Source of the DNA: a virus
DNA: 50,396 nucleotides
Reading direction: 5' to 3' (one strand)
IMG/VR virus record: IMGVR_UViG_3300033144_003191
Coordinates: 1 to 50,396 of that record
Below are positions 5,266-32,222 of the stretch, one piece after another. A program made the position numbers and the translations under genes. The notes beneath the pieces are model-generated. The model saw only the letters and a list, made by a program, of their open reading frames with translations, did not search any database and was not told the origin of the DNA. How positions within the stretch are numbered: position 1 is the stretch's first letter; each line of letters starts with the position of its first letter.

Positions 5266-6396
5266 CTAGAAGCTCACGACCTGCGGGAAGCTCAGCCCCT
5301 GATCGACACGGTTGTTCACCGCCCCAAGGTCCTCCTCGTTCACGGGGATGACGCTGGAGAGGATGCCATCCGCATCGTTGGTGGTCGCGTCGCCCGAGTA
5401 GAGCTCGAGCTTGCGAACCGCCGCGATGTTGATGACGGCCATGGCGATGTCCTCCCAGGACTGCCACGTGATCAAGTTCGCGATCTTGTCGATGTAGAAC
5501 TTGACGTTGTTCAGGATGTAGAACTTCCCGAAGAACTCCGGCTTCGTGAAGACGTAGACGTTTCCGGTCCTCAGGATGTCCGTCTTGATCGTCCGCACGA
5601 AGGCATGGCCGAGGAGCAGGGTGTACTTGTACCCATCGGTGGTGGTCTCCGACTGGAGCTTGTCACCGAGATCCTCGACGGTCCACTGCAGGATGTCCGT
5701 GAACTCCCCCTCCGTCATCAGGAAGCGTTCCGCACGCAGCCTGTTGAGGTTGAGGAGCTTCAGGAGGTTGACGAGGTCCGGCCGCTGGAGCGGGCGGACC
5801 ACCGCATCGTTGGTCGAGGCAGCGCGAGCGAGGGAACCCTTGCGGATTGCGACCTCGACCACGGAGCCGGCGACGATTCCCGATGCGTTGAGAGCGGTGA
5901 CGGAACCGCTGTTGGCCTCCTGCTGGAGAGCCTGGCAGGCCGCCTCGATGTGGATCGTGAACTCCCGGTCCTCGATCTCCTGGATGTCCTTCACCGAGTT
6001 GTCCTCGATGATCTTGGTGACGGGCATCTCGTAGGCCAGTAGCTCCTGCTCCGTCTTCTCGAACTTCTCCGAGGAGATGGTGTAGAAGGGCACCTCTGCT
6101 CGAGGCGCACGGATGAACCTGGCAGTGGGCTGGCCACGGAACGTGATCGCCATGGCCCGAGACTCGGGCTCGACGTCCACGATCTTCACGAGGGTGTCGT
6201 GATTGACTGAGCGCTGGCAGTCCGCCTTGGTGACCATCTCCGGGGGGATGATCTGGCGGGAGTAGGCTACCTCGCGCAGTCTGTCACGGATGTAGGACCC
6301 ACCGAACGCTGCGATCTTCTCTTTGGCCTCTGCCGAGTCCAGCTTGGTGGCAAAGAGCTCGTTGAGAACCCGCGGATTGACTTGCTGCTGCGTCAT
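5266..6396 (-). CDS. Probable major capsid protein
   Basis: This 376-residue protein has the size and layout expected for an HK97-fold capsid subunit: a helical N-terminus, a mixed alpha/beta body and a hydrophobic C-terminal domain near 300-340 (KIANLITW, IAMAVINIAAVRKLEL). It is preceded in the operon by a decoration-like gene and scaffold-like proteins, with the putative protease further upstream. A strong terminator follows it, a common arrangement for the most abundant phage protein. EKIAAFGGSY at residues 26-35 carries the EKxA motif and could be a processing site. No diagnostic catalytic motif exists for capsid proteins, so the call rests on context and shape. Another abundant structural role is possible. 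Confidence 0.7.
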   Translation of the reverse strand: MTQQQVNPRVLNELFATKLDSAEAKEKIAAFGGSYIRDRLREVAYSRQIIPPEMVTKADCQRSVNHDTLVKIVDVEPESRAMAITFRGQPTARFIRAPRAEVPFYTISSEKFEKTEQELLAYEMPVTKIIEDNSVKDIQEIEDREFTIHIEAACQALQQEANSGSVTALNASGIVAGSVVEVAIRKGSLARAASTNDAVVRPLQRPDLVNLLKLLNLNRLRAERFLMTEGEFTDILQWTVEDLGDKLQSETTTDGYKYTLLLGHAFVRTIKTDILRTGNVYVFTKPEFFGKFYILNNVKFYIDKIANLITWQSWEDIAMAVINIAAVRKLELYSGDATTNDADGILSSVIPVNEEDLGAVNNRVDQGLSFPQVVSF

Positions 6397-8726: not shown

Positions 8727-9023
8727 TTACGATCTCACTACAGGAGGCGTCATAGCCTTCTGCGCTGAGGTCAGCGATGGATTCGGGGGAGGGACCATGG
8801 TGTTGGGCTTCGTGTAGTTGGTCTTCTTCAAGTTCGTCTTCGTGACGACCTTACCCACCAATTTCTGGGGAGTGACAGGGGCAGCAGGCTTTGAGGGCAT
8901 GGTGCCACCATCACCCCCCGGAGAGGGAGGTGCGATGATCGATGGGGAGGAGAAGCCAGCAGCCTTCATGATGCTGGCTAGCTCCTCGCCCATCGACCGG
9001 AAAACCAGAGAGCCCAAGTCCAC
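8727..9023 (-). CDS. Small Pro-rich virion-cluster protein, GTG start
   Basis: This 98-residue protein starts at a GTG five bases after the stop of the upstream gene, with AGGTCAG in front of it. It has a short helical N-terminus (VFRSMGEELASIMKAAGF), then Pro/Gly-rich and Lys/Thr/Asn-rich sequence that is probably disordered. No domain is recognised. A later start at the ATG of residue 11 is possible. Operon position is the only hint of a structural role. Confidence 0.65.
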   Translation of the reverse strand: MDLGSLVFRSMGEELASIMKAAGFSSPSIIAPPSPGGDGGTMPSKPAAPVTPQKLVGKVVTKTNLKKTNYTKPNTMVPPPNPSLTSAQKAMTPPVVRS

Positions 9024-9028
9024 CTGAC

Positions 9029-9646
9029 CTAGCCCTCAGTCCCGGTGTTGACGGGGTAACCCATGTCCGCGAGGACCTGCCAGGCCGCAGTGTCCACAGC
9101 GACCTTCTCTTCCTCGGCCTGCTTCTGCAGGGCATCCGGGGGGACGATGGTGCCGTCCTCGTTGACGAGACCGTTCTCGTTGAGGATGTCGAAGGCGCGC
9201 TTCTCGACGCTCTCCTGGAAGGCCGCGTCCTTCTCCTTGTCCTCGCCCTTGTCCTCCTTGGCCTCTTCCTTCTTCTTCTGGACGGCGGCCAGGAGAGGAT
9301 TCCCCTTCTTCTCGGGCTCGGGCTCCCCGCCCTCCTCGGCATGCTTCTGGATCGACTTGAGCTCGTCGACGTAGGCATGGGCCATGATGCGGCCCATGTA
9401 GTCGGCCTGCTTCACCATGTCGGCAGCGGCGTCCTTCTCCATGTCGTCGTCGGTGGTCTCCTCGGGGGTGCCCGCCAGCTCATTGTAGGCCTCGACGATT
9501 TGCTCGTCGCTGAGCTTGGTCAGGTCGATGTCGCCTTCTTCGGCGATCTTCTCGAGCAGCTCGAGCTCCGCGGTCTTCGCCATCTGCTCTTGCGACGGCT
9601 CGACGGCACCCAGAGTGTCGTAGAAGTCAGCCAGTGTCTTGTCCAT
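9029..9646 (-). CDS. Acidic helical scaffold-like protein
   Basis: This 205-residue protein is very acidic and helical, with many Glu/Lys runs (EPEKKGN, KKKEEAKEDKGEDKEKD). It lies between the putative protease and the capsid region, as scaffold genes often do. K-x-A sites are unusually dense: AKTA (23-26), EKIA (32-35), EKDAAA, VKQA, QKHA, EKDAAF, EKRA, QKQA and EKVA. If that motif is a cleavage signal, this protein would be cut into small pieces, as T4 core proteins are. The start follows AGGAGAAGAGGA. The role is inferred. Confidence 0.7.
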   Translation of the reverse strand: MDKTLADFYDTLGAVEPSQEQMAKTAELELLEKIAEEGDIDLTKLSDEQIVEAYNELAGTPEETTDDDMEKDAAADMVKQADYMGRIMAHAYVDELKSIQKHAEEGGEPEPEKKGNPLLAAVQKKKEEAKEDKGEDKEKDAAFQESVEKRAFDILNENGLVNEDGTIVPPDALQKQAEEEKVAVDTAAWQVLADMGYPVNTGTEG

Positions 9647-9712
9647 GGTGTTCCTCTTCTCCTTGTCAGTTCATGCCATGCGGAGAAGGGACGATATTCG
9701 AGATAGGCATCT

Positions 9713-11854
9713 CTACGCCGCTCCACCGCGTCCTGCGAGGGCGTTCACCTCTCGCAGACCCGCGTAGCTAGGATGGTCTGCCACATACCGGGATACGGGC
9801 CCAGGCATGTAGACTCCGTTGAGATAAGTGGCAGGGAACATCCCAAGAAACGATTGAATCACGTCCCCACCTGCTTTGACAAGACCCGCCCCCTCTTTTA
9901 GGAACAGATCCTCCTCGGAGACGATCTCTGCGTACAGTCCCGGGTACTCGTGAAGCGCCTTGGGCACCAAGCTCGCGACCTTCTGCATGACCTCTTGGCG
10001 ATAGGCCTGGTACGCACCAGATACCTTGTCCAAGAGGGGGTGCTGAATCATGCGGGACTCATCCTTCGGGACGTGCTTCACGATAGTGATCTTGAGGACT
10101 CGTCGCTTCAGCGGAGGGCCGTAAGCTGAGCGGCCTTCCATCAACGGACCAAGCATCTTGATGAGCCGAGGCAGGAAGTCCGGCGCCAACTGCATACCAG
10201 GGGCGGCATCCGCATCTGCACCTGGCTCGAAGCAAGCCCCAGCATCGTCCAGCTTGTCAGCTAGATCATTGTGGCCCATGCTACGGACCATGACACGCTG
10301 GAACTCCCGCGGCTTCAGGACGATACCCATTCCAGCAGCCGTACCCAGAGAACGACCCGGGCACTCCGACATCTCGTCAAGGGTATCCTTCGGGATGTCG
10401 GGCTCCTCCTTAGCGACGGATGATAGCGACTTGTTGAAGTGGGACTGGATCCTCTTGATGATCTCAGCCTTCTTGTCAAAGGAGAGGTCCGCCAGCTTCT
10501 GCGGTCCAACGGCGAAGGCTTGCTCGAGGTCCGCCATCCCAATCTTCACGACCTTCTCTTGGTGGCTGCGAGTCGTGAACCCAGGGCGGGACAGCTTCCT
10601 GCGCTGCCTGTCGATGATCTTGTTTATGCGGACCTCGTCCTCGGGGTCCTCGAACTCAGGGAAGGCTCGGTACCCAGCCGCCTTCTCATGAACCGCGCTG
10701 AGCTTTGCCTCTCGCGCCTTCTTACGCGCTTTCAGGAACTCCCCGCCCTGCTTTAGGGCCGCGTTCATGATCGGGCCGGCTGTTTTCTCCTTAGCCTCCC
10801 ACTCCTTCTTGAGTCGCGCCATCTCCTGCTTCGAGATGTCCTGAATCTCGCCAGCGTCGCGATCATCACGGTTGTGCTGGACTACGTACTCCTCGAAGGG
10901 GGTCAGTTCCATGGCCGTCTTCTCTCGAGACCAAACGTCATGGATGTGTGAGCTCAGGACTGCGCCATGAGGACTGCACTTGGTGCAGCCTGCCTTACAC
11001 ATCGGGGAGTCGATCTTGATTGGGCACTGACCCACAGCCAACTTCGCCATGACCTTGGAGGACTTGTCGGCTCCGATGAAGACGAACGAGATGTCAAAGA
11101 ACTTGGGGTGGAGGTTCCACATCCACACCCGTCGACCGTCAGGGTAAATCCTTCCTGTCTCGAACTGGAGATGCTGGCAATAGTCCTTGGTCGTGACGCT
11201 GAGTCCGCGGATCGGCTTGCGCCTATGCTCCGCGAGGTCCTTGCGTGGGTTGCCAGTGATGCGAGACCAGTCCGTGCAAATGGAGCAGAGATCAAACGGG
11301 ACACGGCACCCCATGCTGACATCAGGGAACTCGCCGTTGTCGATCCTGTCCACGACGCCGTAGGCTCCCTGCTCCTGAGCCTTTTTACGGGAGACGCCGA
11401 CTACGAGAAGGACCCTCCGCATCTGCGGGTCCCAGGTCGCGTACTCTACATTGCCGAAAGCTCGAGCTGGATCCTTGTTGACGTGGTGCTGATAGGCGTA
11501 GGCGTTGTAGAACGTGGGGTAACCCCACTCCCACTTCGACCCAGTCATTCGCCGCATGCTAGTGCTAAGGTCCTGCCAACCCTGCGGTGCGTGGATCAGG
11601 CTGTGGTGCGGGAAGTAGTCCCCGTTTGTATTTGATCCCCAGTATTCCCCAGCACCGAGGGCGGACAGCAAAGCCATGACCTTGCCCTCGTCCTTGGGCG
11701 CGGCCTTCATGAACTTCTTGACGTCGTCGAGGAGAGGGGCGGAGACGTGAGCCTCCTTCACCATCTCGATGCAGTCGTCATACCCCGGGTGCAGAAGGTG
11801 AAAGTGAACACCAACATCACTCTCCCCGGAGTACTGGCACTGCTTCTCGATCAT
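9713..11854 (-). CDS. Putative prohead maturation protease with extended C-terminus
   Basis: This 713-residue protein has an N-terminal part (about 60-265) with the order of features seen in serine prohead proteases of the HK97/T4 type: a GSNTNGDYF block near 73-81, YQHHVNKDP with His123/His124, and after about 56 residues DVSMGCRVP with Ser180, then a DISFV strand near 254-258. The His and Ser would form the catalytic centre. The enzyme would trim head proteins inside the prohead. Unusually, Cys183, 190, 193, 226, 277, 286, 290 and 293 cluster around and after the active-site region, suggesting bound metal. The long C-terminal half is helical, contains REKTAMEL, KEKTAGP and HEKAAGY, and may be a scaffold-like or self-cleaved extension. 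The assignment is by motif layout; a purely structural role cannot be ruled out. Confidence 0.55.
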   Translation of the reverse strand: MIEKQCQYSGESDVGVHFHLLHPGYDDCIEMVKEAHVSAPLLDDVKKFMKAAPKDEGKVMALLSALGAGEYWGSNTNGDYFPHHSLIHAPQGWQDLSTSMRRMTGSKWEWGYPTFYNAYAYQHHVNKDPARAFGNVEYATWDPQMRRVLLVVGVSRKKAQEQGAYGVVDRIDNGEFPDVSMGCRVPFDLCSICTDWSRITGNPRKDLAEHRRKPIRGLSVTTKDYCQHLQFETGRIYPDGRRVWMWNLHPKFFDISFVFIGADKSSKVMAKLAVGQCPIKIDSPMCKAGCTKCSPHGAVLSSHIHDVWSREKTAMELTPFEEYVVQHNRDDRDAGEIQDISKQEMARLKKEWEAKEKTAGPIMNAALKQGGEFLKARKKAREAKLSAVHEKAAGYRAFPEFEDPEDEVRINKIIDRQRRKLSRPGFTTRSHQEKVVKIGMADLEQAFAVGPQKLADLSFDKKAEIIKRIQSHFNKSLSSVAKEEPDIPKDTLDEMSECPGRSLGTAAGMGIVLKPREFQRVMVRSMGHNDLADKLDDAGACFEPGADADAAPGMQLAPDFLPRLIKMLGPLMEGRSAYGPPLKRRVLKITIVKHVPKDESRMIQHPLLDKVSGAYQAYRQEVMQKVASLVPKALHEYPGLYAEIVSEEDLFLKEGAGLVKAGGDVIQSFLGMFPATYLNGVYMPGPVSRYVADHPSYAGLREVNALAGRGGAA

Positions 11855-15111: not shown

Positions 15112-15138
15112 GGGCGCCTTCGGGCGCCCTTTCTCTTT
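15112..15138 (+). terminator. Rho-independent terminator with TTCG tetraloop
   Basis: A 7-bp stem (15112-15118 gggcgcc, 15123-15129 ggcgccc) is closed by TTCG and followed by tttctcttt. It ends the holin-like transcript and overlaps the stop codon of the convergent terminase gene. An alternative hairpin just upstream (cgcccc, ttgtac, ggggcg) would compete for the first stem arm. Confidence 0.9.
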
Positions 15139-16990
15139 AGTCGATTACGGTTCCGTCCTTGATCGAGACCAGGATGTCTGGCCGCTGCCTGATAATCATG
15201 GAGGCCAGGAAGCAGTACACAACAGCGTCGAAAGTGTCGTCGCTCTTGCCGGGGCTGATCTTGTACTGCGTCATACGGAGCTGTTCCGAATACTCCGAGA
15301 AGATGTTGAGCATATCGACGGCATGAATCTCTTGCCACTGCTCCCAGTTCGGGAACCGGATGATTTCGGGACCGCGCTTGATGGCGTTGAAGATATCGGA
15401 CATGATCTCCGACTTGTGCATCGTGAAGCGGCCCAGCTTGTCCTGCCACTTGATTTTCTGGAGCTGCTTGCCGACGTACTGGTACTTCTTGATTTTCTCT
15501 GGCCCGAAGGTGCGCATCAGCCAGTCGTTGGTGTAGTAACCTCCGCCGTAGTCGGTGCCAGCTAGCTTGAAGTTGACGCCGACCAGCAGCTTGGCGATGG
15601 CCTCGAGCTGCGCAGTAGGCTCCACCTCTGGGCCAGTGAACCTGTGGGCGTAGAAGATGGTGAACACGCCCCCGATGTACCCACCCAAAGTGATCACGGT
15701 ATAGGACTCGTTCTCCGCCGTGCCCCAGTCGATCCCGGCGTAGACACCATCGTCACAACGCGCGGCGTTCTTCCGGACCTCAGTCATCTCGATGTCGTCG
15801 CGGCAGCAGGCTTGGACCTGGGACCGAGTCAGGGGGCGTGACCCAGAGTCGTAGCTGAGACCGAGAACCTCGTTGTAGAACAGAGCTCGTTCGTATCGGT
15901 TGTAGGCAAAGAGGACGTTGTCGTTCCAAGCCTCTTCGTTGTTGATGATCCACGGCACCATGAGCTGCGGGATGCGGAAGCCCTCGAACGTGACACGGTC
16001 CCTGTTGTTGTTGGTCTTGGGCTGCTTCGCTACCCACTGCGCCTTCCCGCCAAGCGGGTTGATGTACTTGCCGCACTTGGCACAGATCGGGCCCTTCTTA
16101 CCGATGTTCCGCTCACCTAGGATGTTCCAGTTGCCGCAGCCCTTCTCATCTAGGCCCAGACCTTCGCATGGAACCGCCCACTCGTTCTGGGTAGAGAACT
16201 GGTCCCAGTAGATCTGGATCGTGTTGTCCATGGACTTCGGTGTGCCAGAGTACCGATACAACTTCCAACTGGAGTGGGAGGCGCATTGCTCGATGACTGG
16301 GATGTTCTGGGTAGCGATGTCCTGTATCTCGTCGATCAGAATCAAGTCGGCAGAGATACCACGGACACGGTCCGCGGACAGGAATGCGTACCTGATCCTG
16401 ATCTGTGAGCGGTTGCGCAGCTGCTTGAAGAACACGTTCTGCGCCAGCTTCGTAGTCGTGAGGTTGTGGATGATTGGACTGATCTCGATTACCTCTCGGA
16501 TTCTGTCCACTGAGAAGACTGTTGCCTGCTGTGCAGTAGCCGTGACGAACAGCACCTTGAAGGCTACGTTGAGGGAGGAGTACGCGACCGAGATGTTGCC
16601 AAGACCAGTCGACTTCTCGGTCTGACGGGCGCACTTCATCAAGACACGGGGTGACTGCAGATCGTAAATCAACGGGAGGTAGGGCCGCTCGTCGAACGAG
16701 AACGGGGATATTGCTCCAGCTACTGGTATGTTGATCGCGAATTCCGTGAACTCGGAGGGGGAGACCTCGACACGATTGTCGGGCCTCTTCACTACAGTCT
16801 CCCCGCCCTCAAGCCCAAGAATGGCGTCGATCTCCTCCTCATCCATCAGGTCTTTTTCGTGCTCCTCAAGGAGGTCGTCGATCTCCCGCTCCAAGCTCTC
16901 ATCGTACCCACCCATCTTGGAGCGTAGGTACAGCCGCTCTCTGTGGGCTGCGAGATCTTTGTCGTAGCTGGTACTGGCGGCGTGAAGCAT
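15137..16990 (-). CDS. terL: Terminase large subunit (packaging ATPase-nuclease)
   Basis: This 617-residue protein is the DNA packaging motor and headful nuclease that docks on the portal. The ATPase domain has a Walker A variant ARQTEKST (121-128), with E in place of the usual Gly before Lys126, and a Walker B LILIDE (216-221). The nuclease domain has GIDWGTAE (419-426), GTDYGGG (478-484) and a late KSDDTFDA, giving the three acidic positions of the RNase H-like fold. An insertion near 275-310 carries Cys275, Cys285, Cys303 and Cys306 (CAKC) and probably binds zinc. The first 100 residues are an acidic helical extension. A minus-strand promoter candidate lies at 17035-17064. It stands alone between two plus-strand islands. 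Confidence 0.95.
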   Translation of the reverse strand: MLHAASTSYDKDLAAHRERLYLRSKMGGYDESLEREIDDLLEEHEKDLMDEEEIDAILGLEGGETVVKRPDNRVEVSPSEFTEFAINIPVAGAISPFSFDERPYLPLIYDLQSPRVLMKCARQTEKSTGLGNISVAYSSLNVAFKVLFVTATAQQATVFSVDRIREVIEISPIIHNLTTTKLAQNVFFKQLRNRSQIRIRYAFLSADRVRGISADLILIDEIQDIATQNIPVIEQCASHSSWKLYRYSGTPKSMDNTIQIYWDQFSTQNEWAVPCEGLGLDEKGCGNWNILGERNIGKKGPICAKCGKYINPLGGKAQWVAKQPKTNNNRDRVTFEGFRIPQLMVPWIINNEEAWNDNVLFAYNRYERALFYNEVLGLSYDSGSRPLTRSQVQACCRDDIEMTEVRKNAARCDDGVYAGIDWGTAENESYTVITLGGYIGGVFTIFYAHRFTGPEVEPTAQLEAIAKLLVGVNFKLAGTDYGGGYYTNDWLMRTFGPEKIKKYQYVGKQLQKIKWQDKLGRFTMHKSEIMSDIFNAIKRGPEIIRFPNWEQWQEIHAVDMLNIFSEYSEQLRMTQYKISPGKSDDTFDAVVYCFLASMIIRQRPDILVSIKDGTVID

Positions 16991-21931: not shown

Positions 21932-22224
21932 ACTATCCTCCCTACCTTGGTCGTTGCGCCGGTGTCCACTACATCAGGGATCTCGGCGTGACCCGTCAGA
22001 AGCTCTACGATAGCACGACCAAAGGCTCTGAACATAGGTCGTACTTGTTCGAGATCGACCTCAACAGGACCGACGTCGTCGGTCACTGCGTACTTCGTTG
22101 ACCCGTCTTCTTGGGTCTCCTGCGAAACTGAGCGCCCCTTCACCACCTCTGGGAACTTCGACTCCATCTCCGCTTGGTAGTAGGAGAGGGCTAGATCGAC
22201 AAACACCTCTGGGTCAAGAGCCAT
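21928..22224 (-). CDS. Small acidic structural-cluster protein
   Basis: This 98-residue protein is translated from the ATG that shares its A with the spike gene's stop (TGATG), and its own stop overlaps the next start (ATGA). The sequence begins with a helix (DPEVFVDLALSYYQAEME), followed by strands and a second helix (FRAFGRAIVELLTGH). Small proteins beside spike genes may be baseplate wedges such as the gp25 type, but the key residues of that family were not identified here. Confidence 0.7.
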   Translation of the reverse strand: MALDPEVFVDLALSYYQAEMESKFPEVVKGRSVSQETQEDGSTKYAVTDDVGPVEVDLEQVRPMFRAFGRAIVELLTGHAEIPDVVDTGATTKVGRIV

Positions 22225-23405
22225 CACAAAGCTCCTAGCTTAGTGGCCGTGAACGCAGAGGGCGGCAGCTTTGGCTCGGGCGGGCCAGTAGACGAGCCCA
22301 CGATAGGATGGACGTGCCCAACCATGTACCCGACCATGGCCATACTTGCTAACACCACAGCGGTGGTGCCGCCGGCGGCGCCGATGCTGGTGTACCCAGC
22401 CTGAATGACCTTGGCGCCGCTGATTCGCTCCGTGGAGTCCGCCGCATCAAGAGTGTGGCTGCCCGATACCGTCGTATTCTGGTCGCCATTGATCTCTTCC
22501 GTGAGGCCGCCCTGGTATCGGTACGTTGCTTCGCCAGTGACCTCCCAATCCAGAACCCCCTCCACCTTGTGGTTGTGGTCCTTCTGCGCCTCGGAAGTGA
22601 TCGTGCCCTCTTCATCGATGTCCAGGGTGTACACCGCTGTGCCCGTGACCTCGAGGGTCTCTGTGTTGATGGCATTCGGTGCAATGATCAAGCGCAGTCG
22701 CTTCGTGTCATCGACGTGCCCGATTTGGACAGCTACCGTAGCCTTCTCATCCTGCGCGGCATTGCGGCCCACAATAGTTAGGACCGCCGTTGCCTCACCA
22801 GCAGCGCTCTCATCTGATCGCGCCACTGTCCAGGCCATCTGACCGCCAGCCGTCCACAGCGAGTAGTTCTCACAGATGTCCCGGATGTAGTTGAGCAACG
22901 GGATGTAGAGCCGCTTCGAGATAGCGGTGCTCCCAATCTCGAGGACACCGCCACGGCGCAACCAGATCGAGTTACCGTCTCTGGTGCGGAGCATGATGTC
23001 GCCTTGCTCAAGCTGAGGCCTGCCGGCACGGTACGTCACGTCACCGCCGCCCTCTTCTGCGGCTGGGTCTGACGGATTGTCCCCGACGCTGGAGTCCTCC
23101 CCTGCTTCAGCTCTCCGAGCAGGGCGCTCATGAGAAGCGACGAAGCACATCACGAAGGCGGAGCTCTCTCCGGGCTCGCACACCTTCACCTTGGCGCCCA
23201 CCTCAGGCATGAACAAGATGCCTTCGCCGCCCGTGAAGTGGAGGTACGGAGACGACCACTGGATGTCCTGGAACACCCTCTGGGTCTCACGAGTACGGAC
23301 GTCAACAGTCCACCGTCTCGTGTTGACATTGATGATCCGGCCCTCCTCGATGCTAGTCGAGTTCAGGCCCTCATCTATGACGGACTCTTCGTGTCGACGA
23401 GGCAT
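22224..23405 (-). CDS. Baseplate spike-like protein (gpV/gp5-type OB fold and beta helix)
   Basis: This protein of about 393 residues is proposed to form the trimeric membrane-piercing tip of the tail. The start is taken at MPRRHEES (23405), five bases after the preceding stop, although the frame is open further upstream. Residues about 18-90 look like the OB fold of the gpV family (GRIINVNTRRWTVDVRT, then a strand-rich part with GEGILFMPEVGAKVKV). The later half alternates short strands with Gly/Asp/Thr, as in spike beta helices. Near the C-terminus GHVHPIVGSSTGPP holds the His-x-His that binds iron at the tip of P2 gpV and Mu gp45. A KDHNHK occurs earlier. It is co-transcribed with other virion genes. 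Confidence 0.7.
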   Translation of the reverse strand: MPRRHEESVIDEGLNSTSIEEGRIINVNTRRWTVDVRTRETQRVFQDIQWSSPYLHFTGGEGILFMPEVGAKVKVCEPGESSAFVMCFVASHERPARRAEAGEDSSVGDNPSDPAAEEGGGDVTYRAGRPQLEQGDIMLRTRDGNSIWLRRGGVLEIGSTAISKRLYIPLLNYIRDICENYSLWTAGGQMAWTVARSDESAAGEATAVLTIVGRNAAQDEKATVAVQIGHVDDTKRLRLIIAPNAINTETLEVTGTAVYTLDIDEEGTITSEAQKDHNHKVEGVLDWEVTGEATYRYQGGLTEEINGDQNTTVSGSHTLDAADSTERISGAKVIQAGYTSIGAAGGTTAVVLASMAMVGYMVGHVHPIVGSSTGPPEPKLPPSAFTATKLGAL

Positions 23406-23409
23406 AGCT

Positions 23410-23769
23410 CTACCGTCGTCTACGGCCGCCCAGGGCAGACCCGGCCGCGATACCACCCGCGCCAACGGCCCCTACGCCAGCCACGCCCGCAGCTGCAGCT
23501 TGCCCCATCGGGTTCTTCAGTACTTGCTTCGCGCCGCCCAGGAATTGGCCGACCCTACCCGCGCCACCCTTGGCAGCAGCCGCAGAGCCGCCGCGGTAGG
23601 CAGACTGCAGCATCTTCGCAGACGTAGCAGGCTTCAACTTCGTGAGTGCTTTGGCACCCTGCCCGATGGCCCCAAGGATCGCTTCCTTCTTCATGGCCTC
23701 CTTCTCGATGTTGTGCAGCTCGTCGAAGAAGGAATCGTACAAGATCTCTTGCAGCTCTTTGTCGGTCAT
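23410..23769 (-). CDS. Small Gly/Ala-rich virion-cluster protein
   Basis: This 119-residue protein starts after TTAGGAGACGACG. An acidic helix is followed by NIEKEAMKKEAILGAIG (EKEA at 22-25). The rest is rich in Gly and Ala, with a possible membrane segment near 88-112 (AAAAGVAGVGAVGAGGIAAG), and ends in GGRRRR. It lies between the polymerase and spike genes. The layout matches the proteins at 11863 and 32206, so the three may be one class of internal or ejected proteins. Confidence 0.7.
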   Translation of the reverse strand: MTDKELQEILYDSFFDELHNIEKEAMKKEAILGAIGQGAKALTKLKPATSAKMLQSAYRGGSAAAAKGGAGRVGQFLGGAKQVLKNPMGQAAAAGVAGVGAVGAGGIAAGSALGGRRRR

Positions 23770-23778: not shown

Positions 23779-26700
23779 CTAATAGCCCACGTTGTCGCCG
23801 AGGCCAAACTCAGCACCGAAGACTAGTCCTGGGATCGGATGGTCGCCGTGGATGCTCGACTGCCACCCGCGCTGAGCGCCCTCTATCACAGTTGATTTTA
23901 GCTCCTCATGGTTCAGTCTGGCTAGCCAGTCTTCCATGACGTCCTGTGGGATGTGCTTGACGCCCTTCATAATTGGCCTGTGGCGGATCGGGTCTTTGCC
24001 CCGAAGCATGTTGCGATTCCAGTCCTGAACCTGAGAAGTATTCACGAAGTCCCCGCGTACCAAGTCCGGATGACCGCCTGGATCGTCGACCTTGGTGACG
24101 TTGGACATGGCCCTCACGACTACCTCGGTGTTGCGCCGCCGGATACCCTCTGGGGCGTAGAGCTTGTGCAGCTCATCAGCCAGGTAGTTCTGCACGGGGT
24201 TGAGCCCAGTGAGTGGCAGCATCTCATGGGGGTTCACTGGACCGGACGTGATCGGAGTTCCCTTCTTGACCTTCGCCCCCGACTTCACCCCAGACAGCAG
24301 TGATCGGCCAGCCGGGACGTAATGCCGCTTGCCCTCCACCTCTACGCCGTAACCACCGGCGGGGTCCTCCTTGATGGAATTGATCCTACCGTTCACCGTG
24401 GCCAGGGTCGCCGAGCCTTTGAGGGTCTGCGGCATGTTGAGCAGCTCCTTGGCTCGCTCCAACCCTTGGTCCGCCAGGTTCTGACCCTTTGGATCATGGA
24501 CACCGCCGCTGTGGAACCTACGCATTGATAGCTGGACACCGCGCTCCCCCAAGGCCTGAGCAGCAATGACCCCGATATTGGTGCCCTGGTCATGAAGCTG
24601 CTCGTTCTCATTGAGACCGTAGCACAACGGGCAGACGCCCTTGGCGTGCCGACACTTCAACGGAGATCGAACCACGACCTTGTTGATTTTGGCGTTGCGC
24701 ATCTCCGACACGAGGCGAGGCGTGAGCAGTGTCCCCCGCTTCAGCTCGCCATCTTGTATCTTGACCGCGTTCTGAAGGTACCGTCCCACGACGTCCGGCT
24801 CGTCTGTTGACAGAGCAACACCCTGCTGCGTACCGCAGTCGTCTCCCTGCACGAGCTGGTCCATCGTGGAGTTCATCATGAGCTTGCTGAGGTAGCCGGG
24901 CTCTGCCACGGACTGCACTTTCTGAATGATACCCTTGCGGCCGCCAGACATCGACGTCCAGTAATCCGAGATGTCGAGGCCTTCTGCATAGGACTTGCTG
25001 ACGGGATTCGGTACGACACGCCCCTGCGCATCCTGGAACAGAACCGGCGACGCTATGAGCTGACGATAAGCATTGCCCTTGATCCCCGCGGCGACCTGGA
25101 GCCGGTCGAGGTTGGTCTTCAAGCCCTTGGCCTTCTCCTTGCCGCGGTCCTCGAGCTCAAGCAGTGCGTCCTCGTACGCAGCCACGATCTTCTGCACGTC
25201 CTTGTCGTCAGACGGGTCGAGACCCTTGGTCTTCCTAGCTGCCTTCCGCATGACCTCGGAACGTGCCGCAGTCATTGTCTTGAGATCATCCAAGCCGATG
25301 CTGAATCCAGACATGAAGGCGTGCTCATTCCCCATCTCCTTCATCAGGTCGATGTGCTGCGCATACCCCTTAGGGTCCTCCTTCGCCATGGCGTTGAAGA
25401 GCTTGCTCTGCTCCTTCTTGTCAAAGCGGTAGTCCAGATCATTGAGCAGCGCACCATCCTGCATCTTGACTCGGAGCGCTTTAGGGACAGCCTCAAGAAT
25501 ACGGAGTCGCCCAGCCGTGGTCTTGGAGTCGCCCACGGACACGACATCGGTAACCCCCACCTCCCCAGATGCGACGTCCTTCTCTAGAGCGACGTGACCC
25601 TTGTACTTTTTGTTGGTCTTCTTGCCCACCTCACTGAGGCCAAACAGCCCAACCTGCATCTCCTTGATCGGAGTGTACGCTGCCTTCCCCGATGACGGGC
25701 TAAACAAGATGTTGCTAGGCATCATCTTCCTAGCCTCTTCCACAGCCTCGTTGGAGATCGGAACGAAGGCCGACATAGCGTCACCGTCGAAGTCGGCGTT
25801 GAATCCAGAGGTGACCAAGGGATGGATGCGGATCGCCTTCCCCTCCATGAGGCGCGGCTTGAACGCCTGGATACCATACCGATGCAGCACCGGGTCGCGC
25901 TTCACGATGAGGGGACGGTCCTCGGTCACGCGCTCCAGCGCCCTGGCTGCTAGTGGCCGACTAGATTTGATCTCCTCTTGCGCCTCGAGCGGAGACATGT
26001 TGAAGGTCTGCCGCAGCTCCCGCACCACAAAGGGCTTGTACAACTCCATCGCGGCCTTGCGAGGGATGCCGATCTCATCCAAGGACAATGACGGCTCCGG
26101 TACGATGGTGGAGCGCAGGCTCATGTCCTGCATCCGCTTCACGAGCTTGTCCTGGAAGAACCCCATCTTCGGTTTGGCCCCAGCAATGACGTCCAAGATA
26201 CCGGGGTAGGTTCTGTTCAAGCTCCCACCAAGCCCAGCGATGGCCTTGAGCTCATCGTACAACTCCGCCCGAAGCGGTGCCCTCTCCTCGTCTGGAGCGA
26301 GCCTGTGCATTGACCCCAGCTTCTGGTTCGTCAAGGCCATCTGCTTGTAGAGGTGATTGACGTCGTCGAACTGAACCGATCCGTCGTCCATGACAGAGAG
26401 CGGCCGCATCACCGGCGGCAGCACCGGGACGTGCTTCATCATGTAGACTTCTGTTGGATGGGTCTTCGCCTTCTTCAGGGCGCGTAGGTACTTGATCTTC
26501 TTGTTGGTCTCGTTCAAGACCTGATCTTTGAGGTTGCCTACCCGCGCCTCTTCCTTGGCCAGCTCAGAATCAACTTTGACGTTGCCGAGAAGGCGGCCCA
26601 CGGCACTCGGACCATACATAGCTCCGCGAGTCCCAGGGCCCACGATACTACCGTTCGGAGTGACGCCCTCTTGGCCTGCCACGATCCTGTCGTACTGCGG

Positions 26701-29700
26701 CTTTCGGATGCCCGATACCGACATGATTGCCCGCTCGAAGATCGGATTTGGCATCGCCTCCTTGAGCGTGATGTGCGACCATTTCGTACCACCATCACCT
26801 CCTGTAACCTTCGGATCGAACAACCCATTCTTTTCCGGTTCCAGGGTCCGCATCTTCACCATGCGTCCGCCGTCCTTGATCTCGCCGTTCGACATGGCAA
26901 GGGTCTGCTCATCCGTGAGCGGGGACAGCACCAGAGAGTTGCCGTCCTTCTCCGTGTTTACGCCCAAGGCCTTGAGGTAGGACAACAGCTTCTTGTACGC
27001 GAAGGTCGGTCTCGGTGGTGGCAGTGCTTCGCCACTCTGCAGGGCACCCCACAGCTCGTCGTTGTCTCCACCCTGAGCCTTGTCCGACTTGTAGGTCGCC
27101 ATCTCTCGGATGTTGTGCTTCGCACCATGAGCCAGAAGACCATAGAGCTCCAGAGCTCCAATCGCCTTGCCGCCATGGGGACCACCGCCCTTGGGAACCA
27201 GGTTCCGGTCGTACGAGTCTCGGCTCCGGACACTCATCTTGTCCTCCACCTGATGGTGGAGCTTCAACGTGTACTGATTGCCGACCAGGACAGGGAGCGT
27301 GTGCTTGCCCGTCTTAGGATCGTAGAGCTTCTCCTTGTCGCTGAGGCCGTGCTGCTTCAACTCGTCAGCCACTGCGCTACGGGCGTCGGCCAGCTCGAAG
27401 TTCTTGACCTTGAAGGTCTCACCAGTCTTCTCTGCTATCTTGGAGGCCGCCGTCTCCAGGACCTGTCCAATGTTCATACGACTCGGCACGCCGAGGGGGT
27501 TGTGAATGACCTCGAGGGGTCGGCCGTCCTCTATCCTCGGCATCTCTACGTCTGGCGCTATCTTCGTGATGATGCCCTTGTTGGCGTGGCGGCTTACGAT
27601 CTTGTCACCAATGACAGCGGGCTCCTCAGTACGAACGTGTATCTCGACGCCCTTGCCGCGCTTCGTCACAGCCACGACCTTGCCAGGGGCAGTCTCCTCC
27701 CAAACCAAAGCCTTGTCCTTGTAGGGATTCACAAGGCTCTTGTGGATCAACGCCAGGTCCGGCTCATCCTTGGAGATGATACGCGGAGCCAGCGCGGCCG
27801 CCAGAGTGTCGCCCGGTAGCAGGGTCTGACCAACACGTATGACGCCATCCTTGTCGAGCTTCTTGCCCTGTACAACAGTTACTCTATCGGGATAGTGGGC
27901 TTGGTACTTGGCCAGGCCCATGAGCTGCCCCTCCCGCGTGGACAGCTTCTTCTTGTACATGTGCTCCGACGTCAGCTTCTTCGCTGCCGACTCAGAGATC
28001 ACAATGCCATCCTCTACGTTGTAGCCGCGGGCTGGCACGTACCCAACACGAAGGTTCACACCGGGTGCGTAGACTCCATCCCTCGTGAACGAGGTGTCTG
28101 AGATCAGGTCGCCACTCTTCACGGTCTGGCCCACCTTCACGACCGGGACCGAATCAAGGACCCCCTTCTTGTCATTCAGCGGATAGTTGTCATAGATCGG
28201 GATGTCGTGGACCTTCCCATCCTTGGACTCAATAACGATGCCATCCGCTTTGATCCTAACTACCTTACCAGTGACAGGGGCCGTCTGCGCAGTGAACGAC
28301 CCCACCAAATCGTCGAAGGTCTTGCCCTTGCCAGCGACGGACTGGACCATTGGCTTCTCACGATGCTTCAGCGCCACGGCCTGTTCCTGGTGACGCCCCG
28401 ACATCGTTGCTCGGTTCTGGGAGTTGTTGCCCAAGAACGGGACCATGTTCATGGCCAATGAGAAGACCTGGCTCGAGGCCGGCATCACGTAGTCCGCGTC
28501 CTTGAACCCCGTGTTTCCTACATCGTTGCCGCGCAACGACGCCTTCACATTTGTCGCCTTGGGCTTGGGCTCGCCGCCCTTCCACTCCACTTGATCGGGC
28601 ATCACAACCACGGAGTCAAACGCCATTGACGGATCGACTCGTTCAGTCTTCCCAGTCCTCAAGTTGTAGAGTGGGATCGTAATCTGCTTGCCACTTTTCT
28701 TGGCACCAAGGGCCGTGTGGAGAGTAACACCCGTCTTTTCTGACTCCGGGGTGTGGAGCGGGTCCAAGAACCCAAAGTGGCTTGGGTTTACGAGCTTCGC
28801 CTCCTCGATGATGCGGTGTGCCGACTTCACGCCACCTTCATCACCCATGATAGTCGTCTTCTGGTGCGCCGAGATCATGGACAAGGGGTTGGTCTGCTCC
28901 GCGGTGTTTGCCAAGGACGACTTCGAGAAGAAGGTACGAATCGGTCGGTTGAATATGTCTGGTCCTAGGATGTCACCAATCTTCTCACGTCGGTCGAGGT
29001 TGTTGCGGATCTTCCTATCGATGACCTTGCCGTGGTCTGTAATGCGATCCGCTACGAAGTCCTCAGTCCCCTTGAGGTCCTTGAACATCAGGGCATCACG
29101 GTCATCGGGCTTCTCGCCGCGTGCTACGCCCAGCAAGCGCCCAGAGGTCCGGAGCATGACATCCGGCGTGATGTTGGTGTCCGCCTTGCCGAGGGTCCGC
29201 TTCATCACCTCGGGTCGCACCTCCGACTGAGCAAAGGTGGACTGGATCACTTCCTGTGCCTCTGCGTAGTCTGCGACTGGGCGACCAGGAGGGCGGAGCC
29301 TGTTGGCGAACGTCACGGCCTTAGTCTCGACGTCCTTCTTACTCGATTTGTTGGCAGCGAGGATGTCCTTGCCCCAGGTGCGTTCCAACGTGTCGTCGTC
29401 TATGCCCAGCGCCTTCATCACAGGGTACAGCGGCGGCGCTGCACCACCATGGCGAATGTTGAACCGACGGTTCTTGGGATCGAACTTGACGTGGAAGCCA
29501 CCGCCCTTGACGTTGATCTGAGACTCAAGCTCTCCATTCTGCTTGACCCTGGTGTACACGCCGGGCTTCAAGAGCCAGAGGTTGTCGACCTGGTACTCCG
29601 AGCCAGAAAGGATATGGGAGAACCTCCTCGTCATCTCAGGGAGGGTAGCGATCTTCCTCGTGCTGCGGTCGATGACATCGCCAGTCTCGTTGTCGACTAG

Positions 29701-29916
29701 CGACAGCTTGGCCTTGATGTCAGCACCAAAGGTCCGCCCTTTCATCTTGGCGGCCTTCTGCCCGCGGACATCCGCGATGTCCTTCTCGTTCTTCAGCTCC
29801 AGATCATCGAGACGGAGAGTATGCTTTGACCCTACGTAGGGGAAGCTGCCCTTGATTGCCTCGAGGACCCCTTCTTTGAGAGCCGCCTGACTCTCTCGTG
29901 GGTCGAGACTTGGCAT
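23779..29916 (-). CDS. Single-chain RNA polymerase: fused beta and beta-prime subunits
   Basis: This 2045-residue protein is a multisubunit-type RNA polymerase core in one chain. Beta landmarks in order: a QTNPLS rifampicin-region block at 341-346, PSHFG-LHTPESEKTGVTL (378-397), a DYVMPASSQV to AVAL block (475-515), GYNVEDGIVISES (631-643), SRHANKGIITKI (775-786), NPLGVPSRMNIGQVLET (806-822) and GGPHGGKAIGALELYG (911-926). Without a stop the beta-prime half follows: RTLEPEKNGLFDP (1023-1035), VPVLPPVMRPL, KAAMELYKPFV, DPVLHRYGIQAF, the catalytic NADFDGD (1373-1379), a bridge helix near 1651-1688, the second zinc site (Cys1694, 1755, 1762, 1765) and the trigger loop QLSMRRFHSGG, with Met1798, Arg1799 and His1802. 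The first beta-prime zinc site is missing. The ATG at 29916 has CGAGGT six bases upstream; the in-frame GTG at 29952 has no ribosome site. The gene lies within the virion operon. The identity is certain; packaging in the particle is inferred. Confidence 0.97.
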   Translation of the reverse strand: MPSLDPRESQAALKEGVLEAIKGSFPYVGSKHTLRLDDLELKNEKDIADVRGQKAAKMKGRTFGADIKAKLSLVDNETGDVIDRSTRKIATLPEMTRRFSHILSGSEYQVDNLWLLKPGVYTRVKQNGELESQINVKGGGFHVKFDPKNRRFNIRHGGAAPPLYPVMKALGIDDDTLERTWGKDILAANKSSKKDVETKAVTFANRLRPPGRPVADYAEAQEVIQSTFAQSEVRPEVMKRTLGKADTNITPDVMLRTSGRLLGVARGEKPDDRDALMFKDLKGTEDFVADRITDHGKVIDRKIRNNLDRREKIGDILGPDIFNRPIRTFFSKSSLANTAEQTNPLSMISAHQKTTIMGDEGGVKSAHRIIEEAKLVNPSHFGFLDPLHTPESEKTGVTLHTALGAKKSGKQITIPLYNLRTGKTERVDPSMAFDSVVVMPDQVEWKGGEPKPKATNVKASLRGNDVGNTGFKDADYVMPASSQVFSLAMNMVPFLGNNSQNRATMSGRHQEQAVALKHREKPMVQSVAGKGKTFDDLVGSFTAQTAPVTGKVVRIKADGIVIESKDGKVHDIPIYDNYPLNDKKGVLDSVPVVKVGQTVKSGDLISDTSFTRDGVYAPGVNLRVGYVPARGYNVEDGIVISESAAKKLTSEHMYKKKLSTREGQLMGLAKYQAHYPDRVTVVQGKKLDKDGVIRVGQTLLPGDTLAAALAPRIISKDEPDLALIHKSLVNPYKDKALVWEETAPGKVVAVTKRGKGVEIHVRTEEPAVIGDKIVSRHANKGIITKIAPDVEMPRIEDGRPLEVIHNPLGVPSRMNIGQVLETAASKIAEKTGETFKVKNFELADARSAVADELKQHGLSDKEKLYDPKTGKHTLPVLVGNQYTLKLHHQVEDKMSVRSRDSYDRNLVPKGGGPHGGKAIGALELYGLLAHGAKHNIREMATYKSDKAQGGDNDELWGALQSGEALPPPRPTFAYKKLLSYLKALGVNTEKDGNSLVLSPLTDEQTLAMSNGEIKDGGRMVKMRTLEPEKNGLFDPKVTGGDGGTKWSHITLKEAMPNPIFERAIMSVSGIRKPQYDRIVAGQEGVTPNGSIVGPGTRGAMYGPSAVGRLLGNVKVDSELAKEEARVGNLKDQVLNETNKKIKYLRALKKAKTHPTEVYMMKHVPVLPPVMRPLSVMDDGSVQFDDVNHLYKQMALTNQKLGSMHRLAPDEERAPLRAELYDELKAIAGLGGSLNRTYPGILDVIAGAKPKMGFFQDKLVKRMQDMSLRSTIVPEPSLSLDEIGIPRKAAMELYKPFVVRELRQTFNMSPLEAQEEIKSSRPLAARALERVTEDRPLIVKRDPVLHRYGIQAFKPRLMEGKAIRIHPLVTSGFNADFDGDAMSAFVPISNEAVEEARKMMPSNILFSPSSGKAAYTPIKEMQVGLFGLSEVGKKTNKKYKGHVALEKDVASGEVGVTDVVSVGDSKTTAGRLRILEAVPKALRVKMQDGALLNDLDYRFDKKEQSKLFNAMAKEDPKGYAQHIDLMKEMGNEHAFMSGFSIGLDDLKTMTAARSEVMRKAARKTKGLDPSDDKDVQKIVAAYEDALLELEDRGKEKAKGLKTNLDRLQVAAGIKGNAYRQLIASPVLFQDAQGRVVPNPVSKSYAEGLDISDYWTSMSGGRKGIIQKVQSVAEPGYLSKLMMNSTMDQLVQGDDCGTQQGVALSTDEPDVVGRYLQNAVKIQDGELKRGTLLTPRLVSEMRNAKINKVVVRSPLKCRHAKGVCPLCYGLNENEQLHDQGTNIGVIAAQALGERGVQLSMRRFHSGGVHDPKGQNLADQGLERAKELLNMPQTLKGSATLATVNGRINSIKEDPAGGYGVEVEGKRHYVPAGRSLLSGVKSGAKVKKGTPITSGPVNPHEMLPLTGLNPVQNYLADELHKLYAPEGIRRRNTEVVVRAMSNVTKVDDPGGHPDLVRGDFVNTSQVQDWNRNMLRGKDPIRHRPIMKGVKHIPQDVMEDWLARLNHEELKSTVIEGAQRGWQSSIHGDHPIPGLVFGAEFGLGDNVGY

Positions 29917-30233
29917 CGCTGTACCTCGTATAGCTACTGTAAACGACCCCACAGTCAGAGGTCAATTCTGGGTACAAGAACAGTGACAGGAACCACCGAA
30001 CATTAGGAGGGAACATGGAGGAAGAAGAGTTCTCCGATCCAGTGGAGGACTGGGCTGATTCTCTCGAGGACGCAACCGACCCGACTGAGGAGGATTGAAT
30101 CTTCCGCCTTTGTCTCTTGGCTTTCAGTTTCGGCGCGCTTGTCGAGACCATGAGGGTCATGAGCGAATGGCGGAGAGGGCGGTTGTAGGCCAACCGTCGA
30201 CAGGGAGGGGGCTCCACAAGGCCCCCTCTCTTT
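29917..30233. other. Gap between polymerase and portal genes
   Basis: This 317-base gap holds a plus-strand mini-gene (30015-30098) and a plus-strand terminator (30205-30235). Between them, 30099-30204 shows small hairpins (gaccatgagggtc; ggttgtaggccaacc) and no convincing reading frame beyond a 12-codon one. The left part must also carry the ribosome site, and perhaps a promoter, of the polymerase gene. GAACAGTG at 29979-29986 recurs at 36828-36835 ahead of the replication operon. Confidence 0.6.
30015..30098 (+). CDS. 27-residue acidic peptide on the opposite strand
   Basis: This short plus-strand gene lies in the gap between the portal and polymerase genes, which run on the minus strand. 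The ATG at 30015 has a strong AGGAGGG at 30005-30011. The product is extremely acidic (MEEEEFSDPVEDWADSLED at the start, ending TDPTEED) with one Trp and one Phe. A rho-independent terminator follows at 30205-30235, which supports a real plus-strand transcript. A small acidic peptide could mimic DNA or bind a basic surface of the polymerase, but this is conjecture. It might also be only the leader of a small RNA. Confidence 0.5.
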   Translation: MEEEEFSDPVEDWADSLEDATDPTEED

Positions 30234-30235
30234 TT
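30205..30235 (+). terminator. Rho-independent terminator for the 30015-30098 transcript
   Basis: An 8-bp stem (gagggggc 30205-30212, gccccctc 30221-30228) with an 8-base loop is followed by tctttttag. Read on the minus strand no T tract follows the stem, so it does not end the portal transcript. Confidence 0.85.
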
Positions 30236-32222
30236 AGATGATCGCGGAGGAAGCATCTCGCCGTGGCGGAAGCTGCTCCGGCAGGGGCTTCCCTGCAGAC
30301 CCGCCCCCACCACCGCCACCGGACATCTGCTTGACGGCCTGCTCCACAGCAGAAGCGAGTTGAGGATCGGTCTGGGCTATCTGCTGGTAGGCCAGGTACC
30401 TCATGTCGTCCGGCATCTGCAGCACTTGCTGCGCCATCATCGTCACTTGTTCCTGAGACGCGCCCCCGCCTTGGGGCAGCGGCTGTTGCTGCTGCTGCTG
30501 GGGCGCCTGCTGAGGCGCCTGCTGAGGCGCCTGCTGCTGGGGAGGCACCTGTTGGGGCTGTGCCCCCATAGCTTGCTGAGGCATGGCGCTAGCACCAGCA
30601 CCCATCATGCCCTCACGAGCCTCCCCGGGAGCAGCATCCTGGGCACCCTGCTGGGCCTGTGCCATCTCCTCTTGCATGACCCTCTGCGCCCTGGCCTGGT
30701 ACTTAGCCATGGCGACCTGCGCCGCGCCTTGGATGTCGGCCTGCGCTAGCTGCTGCTTCTTGACTGCCTGCAGCCGCGCGCTTGTCTCCATCTCCATGAG
30801 CTCGTTTTCCTTCTTCGGGTCGAGGTCGGAGTCGGAGAGCAACGTCGTGTCCGAGATCTTTCCAGCCGTGTTGAACTGGAACATCAGGGCCTTGCGCTGT
30901 AGGTCATCGGCCATCTTGAACGGCTTGAACCTGGCCTCTACCACGGGCCACCCTAGGTACGCCGCCACGTTCTTGATCAGGAAGTTACGGACGAACCTGC
31001 GAAGGTCCGAGATGTAACGAAGGAAGTGGTTCTCCAACATCCTGAGGCTGACGTTCGACCCCGAGTACTGGAGACCGCCGTACACGAACTCGTTCGGCAC
31101 GCCCATACCCGCGATGATCTGGTCGCTCCAAATCTTGATCTCGTTGGTCAGCATCAAGGCGCGACCGTCACCACCAATGACTTGGTGCCCCATCGGTATG
31201 GGGAGGATCGGGATGTATGCTCGGTCGCTACGCCATCGCGCAATCTCTCCTTGAATTTGGTCACGCCACTTCGTCAGAGAGATCGTCGAGTACGGGTCCG
31301 ATGTGCTGGACCCCGCCTGCGGGAACACCACCGACAAGGGGTAGACCCTCTCCATGGCGATGGTTTCGTTGGCCTTCTTCAGGAGCTGGAGGTAGAACGT
31401 GTCCTTCAAGACCGGGAGCGTCAGCGGGATACCGTGGCCAGAGTCCTTGACGCCAGTCAGTAGGCTAGGCCTCCGGGAGTGGTAGATGTTGTCCGGGTTC
31501 AACTTCACGGCCTTGTTCAAACGGATCGCATCGATGATGAGCTGCGGCATGCTCTGCACGATGTGCGGCTTGCCCAACATGATGTCGTTGCGGATCGTTC
31601 GAGGCGGGTCGTAGAAGTAGGTGTCCTCTCCCGTGATGTCGTTGTGGACGATGTTGATGTCCTCAGGGTTCCAGATGATGAGGCGGATCTGTCGTGGCGA
31701 CTTGACGTATACGTCCTTGGCCACCGCCTCCCCGTTGCTCCCACACTTGGGGCAGTGCATCACGAAGCGGTACCCATGGAACCGGTACTGCGTGTCCTTC
31801 GCCGGCACACGATGGTTGCAGTAAGCACACTTCAGGAACTTGATGAAGGGATAGGAGATCGAGACGATGGCATTCCCGTAGTTGAAGTAGTACAGCCCCA
31901 TGTCCACAAGGAAGGACCGCAACCGAATCGTATCCTCGAGGAACTCCTCCCAATGACGAGCCAGCCCCTCATTCTCCTCGTCGATCACTACGTCTGTGAC
32001 AGGGTACTCCGACATCTTGTTGACGGTCGCAGCGATCACCGGGTTCGTGAGGTAGTAGTACCTACACCACTTGAACATCTGCTTGACGGTGTCCGGTAGG
32101 TACGTATGAGCTATGTCGAAGAACGGGGACGGGTACGATACGCCCTGAGGGGCCGCTGATCCAACGATGCGGCTCTGTGTACGACTGAAGCGGGAGTACG
32201 GTCCCTCACTGTACTGGAACAT
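30234..32222 (-). CDS. Portal protein with zinc-ribbon insertion
   Basis: This 662-residue protein forms the dodecameric ring at one head vertex through which DNA is packaged and ejected. Portal features are VDMGLYYFNYGNAIVSI (106-122), the helical stem/crown region with IWSDQIIAGMGVPNEFVYGG, and a following helix with RMLENHFLRYISDLRRF. An insertion at 132-160 (CAYC then CPKC) is a zinc ribbon, unusual for portals. The C-terminal 170 residues are Gln/Ala/Pro/Gly-rich with QQAP repeats, probably disordered and inside the head or at its inner surface. The start overlaps the previous gene by 17 bases. The first residues after the start are Ser/Tyr-rich. Confidence 0.88.
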   Translation of the reverse strand: MFQYSEGPYSRFSRTQSRIVGSAAPQGVSYPSPFFDIAHTYLPDTVKQMFKWCRYYYLTNPVIAATVNKMSEYPVTDVVIDEENEGLARHWEEFLEDTIRLRSFLVDMGLYYFNYGNAIVSISYPFIKFLKCAYCNHRVPAKDTQYRFHGYRFVMHCPKCGSNGEAVAKDVYVKSPRQIRLIIWNPEDINIVHNDITGEDTYFYDPPRTIRNDIMLGKPHIVQSMPQLIIDAIRLNKAVKLNPDNIYHSRRPSLLTGVKDSGHGIPLTLPVLKDTFYLQLLKKANETIAMERVYPLSVVFPQAGSSTSDPYSTISLTKWRDQIQGEIARWRSDRAYIPILPIPMGHQVIGGDGRALMLTNEIKIWSDQIIAGMGVPNEFVYGGLQYSGSNVSLRMLENHFLRYISDLRRFVRNFLIKNVAAYLGWPVVEARFKPFKMADDLQRKALMFQFNTAGKISDTTLLSDSDLDPKKENELMEMETSARLQAVKKQQLAQADIQGAAQVAMAKYQARAQRVMQEEMAQAQQGAQDAAPGEAREGMMGAGASAMPQQAMGAQPQQVPPQQQAPQQAPQQAPQQQQQQPLPQGGGASQEQVTMMAQQVLQMPDDMRYLAYQQIAQTDPQLASAVEQAVKQMSGGGGGGGSAGKPLPEQLPPRRDASSAII
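30502..30537. repeat. 12-bp tandem repeat in the portal gene
   Basis: The unit ggcgcctgctga occurs three times (the last copy with one change) and encodes the QQAP repeats of the portal C-terminus. A run of ctg triplets flanks it. Confidence 0.9.

Follow-up and report, generated by a model that had tools for sequence, protein, structure and literature searches.

Fusion of the two large subunits of RNA polymerase (RNAP) is known from bacteria, e.g., Helicobacter and Wolbachia, whose cellular RpoBC enzymes carry beta and beta-prime in one chain and in that order, and continue to work with alpha and omega. Diverged single-chain RNAPs are likewise known from phages: crAss-like gp66, YonO and P23-45 gp96/gp64 hold both catalytic barrels in one polypeptide, some of them as virion enzymes, and they lie far from cellular RNAP and group with QDE-1-like enzymes (PMC10770324). 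Jumbo phages of the phiKZ/AR9 type encode alpha-free, two-barrel RNAPs that are very diverged and are divided among four to five polypeptides, with two enzymes per phage (PMC7598289), and the mReC phages of Weinheimer and Aylward (2020) are described as having separate beta and beta-prime subunits together with a T4-type capsid (PF07068) and terminase (PF03237) (PMC7481178). Salmonella phage Arash (Gp206 and Gp216) and Vibrio phages D69, D148 and D181 have RNAPs that belong, at about 30-36% identity, to the same sequence family as the gene considered here. That gene lies on a 50.4-kb virus record, itself a fragment (IMG/VR IMGVR_UViG_3300033144_003191, positions 1 to 50,396; this whole stretch is the window below), where positions 23779 to 29916 encode one protein of 2,045 amino acids. 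A preliminary description, made from the letters of the window, had set it against the jumbo-phage, YonO, crAss-like and Helicobacter enzymes, all of which do differ from it, and had overlooked Arash and the Vibrio phages. No description of a canonical fused beta/beta-prime chain in phages was found in the literature searched, which was incomplete.

The frame proved to be as long and as uninterrupted as had been claimed (2,045 codons plus stop), and it lies on the minus strand, no strand having been named before; the plus strand of the same interval contains many stops. A GAGG ribosome site precedes the ATG at 29916, and a GTG is present in the same frame at 29952. As read from its sequence, the gene encodes a complete bacterial-type RNAP core, beta and then beta-prime, fused in one polypeptide with the following features.

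23779..29916, minus: single-chain RNAP coding sequence, 2,045 amino acids (ATG 29916, stop 23781-23779)
26947..29916, minus: beta module, residues 1-990 (Pfam Rpb2_3, Rpb2_6, Rpb2_7; alignment to E. coli RpoB)
27577..27603, minus: beta active-site lysines K772 and K780 (E. coli K1065 and K1073), present in 92/92 phage sequences
26908..26955, minus: beta/beta-prime junction, residues 988-1003 (alignment to E. coli RpoB/RpoC; within the AlphaFold2 model of residues 430-1445)
23782..26910, minus: beta-prime module, residues 1003-2045 (Pfam Rpb1_1/2/5; Foldseek TM 0.86 to bacterial beta-prime)
25780..25800, minus: NADFDGD catalytic Mg site, residues 1373-1379, each of its three Asp kept in at least 91/92 phage sequences
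24865..24960, minus: bridge helix, about residues 1653-1684 (E. coli alignment)
24622..24837, minus: zinc site 2, residues C1694, C1755, C1762 and C1765, in 88-90/92 phage sequences
24499..24549, minus: trigger loop with Met1798, Arg1799 and His1802, the His in 92/92 phage sequences

The assignment of the first half to beta and the second to beta-prime, which had been made from motifs, was borne out by hidden Markov model searches. Pfam placed Rpb2_3, Rpb2_6 and Rpb2_7 in the N-terminal half and Rpb1_1, 2, 3 and 5 in the C-terminal half (Rpb2_6 E=8e-60, Rpb1_2 1e-28, Rpb1_5 2e-22; the Rpb2_7 and Rpb1_3 matches scored under the Pfam cut-offs), and phmmer against known structures gave bacterial beta-prime chains as the top matches (E=5e-108). 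The beta module holds the protrusion, lobe, fork, flap, the beta double-psi beta-barrel (DPBB-B) and the start of the clamp anchor, while the beta-prime module is without the N-terminal zinc ribbon and without SI3. By alignment to E. coli RpoB and RpoC, beta ends at about residue 987 (...LKALGVN) and beta-prime picks up at about 1003 (QTLAMSNGEI...), so that a junction of about 15 residues stands in place of the variable beta C-terminal tail and of the beginning of E. coli beta-prime (about 28 residues). Structure prediction, which the preliminary description had proposed as a check, agreed: AlphaFold2 models of residues 430-1445, with both barrels and the junction (predicted local distance difference test, pLDDT, 85.5; predicted template modelling score, pTM, 0.73), and of residues 1000-2045 (pLDDT 85.4, pTM 0.76) both had bacterial beta and beta-prime as their top Foldseek matches.

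All the hallmarks of a two-barrel RNAP are present: the DxDxD of DPBB-A, the two lysines of DPBB-B, the bridge helix, the trigger-loop His and zinc site 2. The particular motifs named beforehand (NADFDGD, bridge helix, second zinc site, Met-Arg-His trigger loop) could all be located by alignment, and in E. coli numbering beta R678, D814, K1065, K1073 and R1106 and beta-prime R352, R425, D460/D462/D464, E925 and H936 are conserved in 91-92 of the 92 phage sequences. The predicted fold and catalysis of the single chain are strongly supported by sequence, and nearly full bacterial beta and beta-prime are retained, unlike in the crAss-like gp66, YonO and P23-45 enzymes. There are differences from the cellular bacterial core, in that the family lacks both a detectable alpha (see below) and the four-Cys ribbon at the beta-prime N-terminus, the latter being found in none of the 92 phage sequences versus 26/26 bacteria. 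In addition, the positions that contact rifampicin are altered (S531 is Thr in 90/92, H526 is lost and R540 is mostly Ser), and because of these changes the phage RNAP is predicted to be insensitive to the drug.

Scans of IMG/VR yielded, after removal of duplicates, 150 distinct viral loci whose enzymes span 72% to about 30% identity; as the scan patterns were short peptides from either half, fusion was not a requirement for recovery. Nonetheless, the beta/beta-prime junction falls within one open reading frame (ORF) in 147 of the 150 loci; the sequence of the remaining three does not extend across it, and in no locus does a break fall at that point. A single ORF encodes the enzyme in 121 of 136 full-length loci, 21 of those 121 carrying long inserts. 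Breaks, where they occur, are away from the junction: after the beta-prime DPBB (at about residue 1465) in Arash, D69 and others, near 1085 in L320-L322, and near 497 in D148/D181 and L313. One in-frame stop each was seen in L146 and L051, and L374 has a single frame of 2,024 codons provided that TGA is read as sense. The single-chain beta/beta-prime RNAP is, then, the rule within a large phage lineage and not one phage's curiosity.

Several of these loci have features of interest in their own right. The L374 frame (4830-10901) contains 11 in-frame TGA codons and zero TAA or TAG, and this phage seems, from its codons, to read TGA as sense. The RNAPs of L320, L321 and L322 are in three pieces with cuts near 1085 and 1430, beta still being fused to the start of beta-prime. 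Intein-like inserts, with LAGLIDADG and splicing-domain matches, are present in L097, L062, L073, L056, L048, L116, L144 and others, at the catalytic NADFDGD, the beta HGNKG, HTPE and the trigger loop, and L097 has three, giving a frame of 3,259 amino acids.

Processing of virion proteins is common in large phages, and it could be supposed that the chain is a precursor cleaved to beta and beta-prime, the working enzyme being an ordinary two-subunit core. That several relatives are split at gene level would agree with this, but those splits are at other positions, and the junction is short and unbroken at gene level across the 150 loci even though breaks elsewhere are tolerated; we regard such cleavage as improbable.

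Arash and the Vibrio phages illustrate how the chain can be divided. They share with the window the position of the RNAP after the portal, homologous portals, the beta and beta-prime fusion and the loss of the zinc ribbon, and they have AADYDGD where the 2,045-residue enzyme has NADFDGD. In all of them the chain is interrupted downstream of the beta-prime DPBB (at about 1435-1465 of the 2,045-residue protein), with small genes between the pieces; the end of beta and the N-terminal half of beta-prime remain fused. In D148 and D181, a homing endonuclease gene also cuts the beta part (L008 2959-8473 = D181), whereas D69 is without it. A split after the beta-prime DPBB recurs in the phiKZ/AR9-type RNAPs, from which the fused family differs in having mostly one chain and one locus. 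The sampled DPBB-split members (Arash, D69, L140, L148 and L149) form one nested clade (FastTree 1.0, ultrafast bootstrap (UFBoot) 100), which makes it probable that, within the family, the unbroken chain came first and this split arose secondarily.

Could the gene be a recently captured, or mis-assembled, bacterial rpoB-rpoC pair, as the preliminary description had cautioned? Such an origin would account for the canonical motifs and for the order of beta before beta-prime, as in bacterial genes, but the remaining evidence makes it exceedingly improbable. The nearest bacterial beta-prime among the matches listed is about 29-30% identical to the phage enzyme, and no fused phage-type relative in bacterial genomes was among those matches. 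The phage RNAPs fall outside all sampled bacterial RNAPs with UFBoot 100, and the separate beta and beta-prime trees agree; the bacterial sample (the best 80 of the matches listed by one genome scan) consisted for the most part of Actinobacteria, Firmicutes and their relatives, with two gammaproteobacteria, and bacteria were the sole cellular references, without archaeal or eukaryotic sequences, so the trees carry no claim about how the tree of life is rooted. Neighbouring genes are those of phages throughout the family. A hidden stop or frameshift, the other caution raised, was not found either: relatives that are 72%, 65% and 58% identical, and others as distant as about 33%, have the same single frame, which recurs in more than 100 independent contigs. 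Ordinary-looking adjacent bacterial rpoB and rpoC genes do occur in L157, L158, L159, L160 and similar GenBank "phage" records, which look like host contamination.

A second phage lineage with bacterial-type RNAP subunits needed to be told apart from this one. Its members (L334-L337, L340, L343, L350, L385, L387, L388, L393 and L396) have separate genes, beta-prime then beta, of about 900 and 1,030 amino acids, with NADFDGD and a zinc ribbon that is mostly kept, on contigs of more than 200 kb, and T4-type (gp23) capsid genes were found in 3/7 records. Compared by published description, this separate-gene lineage fits the mReC phages. The fused family resembles mReC phages in having an NADxDGD RNAP that is alignable to cellular enzymes (judged here with Pfam instead of COG0085/COG0086 models) and that branches outside the cellular clades (PMC7481178), represented for the fused family by bacteria, but its capsid marker differs. 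PF07068 was found in 0/11 tested fused-family records, and the capsid protein of the window gave no match. The terminase gives a mixed picture: the large subunit of the window matches PF05876, and PF03237 was above cut-off in only 2/11 family records. Once the separate-gene lineage had matched the mReC description, filing the fused family as mReC was ruled out by the capsid marker. In the beta-prime tree the two lineages group together (1.0), with the fused family alone at 0.82, and long-branch attraction between them may be at work. RNAPs of the Carin-5/GN1 type were set aside as a source of the fused form, their order being beta-prime then beta and their motif NLDYDGD, with low UFBoot around the attachment point; scans of viral contigs with the Carin-5 and RHph_TM30 beta-prime by itself brought up no close relatives.

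The surroundings of the gene, described beforehand as a phage virion operon, are those of a tailed phage, and the genes of the virion cluster that could be named share its strand.

30234..32222, minus: portal gene, directly upstream (PHROG portal match; annotated portal of Arash, 30%, 3e-88)
22224..23465, minus: gp5-like baseplate hub gene, downstream (weak Pfam Gp5_trimer_C and PHROG matches; synteny)
15137..16990, minus: terminase large subunit, same virion cluster (phrog_675 E=2e-56; Pfam GpA_ATPase)
5266..6396, minus: major capsid protein, same virion cluster (phrog_2522 E=6e-10)

On the plus strand are genes for a helicase, uracil-DNA glycosylase, a DnaB-type helicase, primase, DNA polymerase A and a RecA-like protein. 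The operon description was upheld by the family: of the 195 loci with enough sequence, 182 have a portal gene upstream of the RNAP, and of 201 eligible loci 140 have a hub gene downstream, in every case on the same strand; some contigs enter these counts as overlapping copies. Among 50,697 phage records, the portal of the window matches chiefly Arash, D69, D148 and D181, evidence that the RNAP and morphogenesis genes travel together, as those four isolates bear the RNAP.

Published virion mass spectrometry (MS) of Arash, the closest isolate to have been characterised, bears on what the enzyme may do. Gp206 (beta and the N-terminal half of beta-prime) led all proteins with 3,516 spectra, Gp216 (the C-terminal half) was the fifth-most detected with 1,210, and the sigma-like Gp010 gave 467 (PMC10585845). 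The protein would be a self-assembling, alpha-free RNAP core, packaged in the virion, as the MS of this one relative suggests, that enters the cell along with the DNA to transcribe the early genes of the phage, and we consider this the likely function, although by no means a certain one. The single chain would fold into the usual crab-claw, its covalent junction doing the assembly work done by the alpha dimer in cells; the finished enzyme would be packaged in the particle, and after injection would transcribe early genes before, or without, the host RNAP, assisted in many members by a phage-encoded sigma-like factor where one exists. Injection, early use and independence from alpha are inferred steps, and on balance these phages probably inject their own transcription machine. 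The longest family records are 160 to 200 kb with one RNAP locus in each, and since they carry one such RNAP only, it may also serve later genes.

A single locus per record would also suit a non-virion polymerase made during infection for middle or late genes, its presence in particles being carry-over. As the Arash authors point out, abundant proteins of the infected cell could co-purify, and the 116 virion proteins that they list include ribonucleotide reductases and other unlikely components (PMC10585845). Such carry-over is nevertheless the less likely explanation, a minority possibility, considering that the enzyme is the most-detected protein of the Arash particle, above the major capsid protein, and that its gene is in the virion cluster beside the portal in nearly all relatives, as expected if it is packaged.

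The proposed independence from host subunits was approached through gene content. An alpha subunit (PF01193) was found in 0/19 long records, 13/14 control genomes being positive, although fragmentary sequence is no proof that a gene is absent, and sigma region 2 was present in 9/19 and region 4 in 11/19. Those same results would suit a protein that replaces host beta and beta-prime and yet needs host alpha and host sigma. However, phiKZ-like phage RNAPs function without alpha (PMC7598289), and the fusion lowers the need for an assembly platform, so that dependence on the host in this way appears improbable, to a degree similar to cleavage of the chain. Apart from the co-purification caveat, other observations weigh against an injected, alpha-free core: only about half of the long records yielded sigma-like genes and the 50.4-kb fragment yielded none, a divergent alpha-like protein could have been missed by Pfam, the split in Arash means that not all members need an unbroken chain, and no biochemistry for any family member was found in the literature searched.

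Of 145 distinct family loci, 102 have a GGTATAAG-like element close upstream of the RNAP gene and on the strand opposite to it, in many cases preceded by GAAA at a distance of about 16 nucleotides, and in 87 of those 102 the element is followed by a ribosome site and a mostly short ORF, compared with 33% of random positions. In the flanks there were 130 matches versus 7 on the other strand and 32 in shuffles. Arash has the element 33 times on one strand and 3 times on the other (a reversed-pattern control gave 3 and 5), often adjoining genes of the strand along which it points. The element is a candidate phage-specific early promoter, and its conservation across very diverged phages suggests a reader encoded by the phage, possibly the single-chain RNAP. 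As a promoter of the RNAP gene itself, the upstream TCTTATACC was rejected, for it is GGTATAAG on the opposite strand and precedes a small divergent gene, as was a sigma-70-like site at 29965-29936, which is at chance level (4 found versus 3.9 expected).

In the window the copy at 29971 is a variant, GGTACAAG, without a clear GAAA. It opens a divergent micro-unit on the plus strand (29971-30231) between the portal and RNAP genes, comprising this promoter-like element, an AGGAGGG ribosome site, a 27-codon acidic ORF at 30015-30098 (MEEEEFSDPVEDWADSLEDATDPTEED) and a terminator-like hairpin at 30202-30231. In most relatives an element of this kind is followed, at the corresponding position, by a short ORF that is in many cases acidic. 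Two further plus-strand elements, GGTATAAG at 14662 and GATATAAG at 17029, are found just before plus-strand genes (at 14678 or 14711, and at 17074) that are embedded in the virion region of the minus strand, an arrangement that would be expected of small early units.

Taken further, and more tentatively, an old and large phage lineage with genomes of about 160-200 kb may carry a nearly complete, alpha-free, one-chain virion core that reads a conserved set of phage-specific promoters, making the host RNAP dispensable from the first minutes of infection; we hold this somewhat less probable than not. Two deep phage lineages with bacterial-type RNAP can now be told apart, one with separate beta-prime then beta and the other with fused beta then beta-prime, a separation that bears on claims of the descent of phage RNAPs from early cellular lineages. 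The existence of cultured relatives, Arash and D69, leaves the idea of a virion polymerase open to direct test. If true, this would be the simplest known canonical bacterial-type RNAP, with one gene, one chain and zero assembly subunits, retaining both barrels and nearly all mobile elements, and it would be a test bed for the roles of alpha, omega and the clamp zinc ribbon, and possibly a one-gene tool enzyme.

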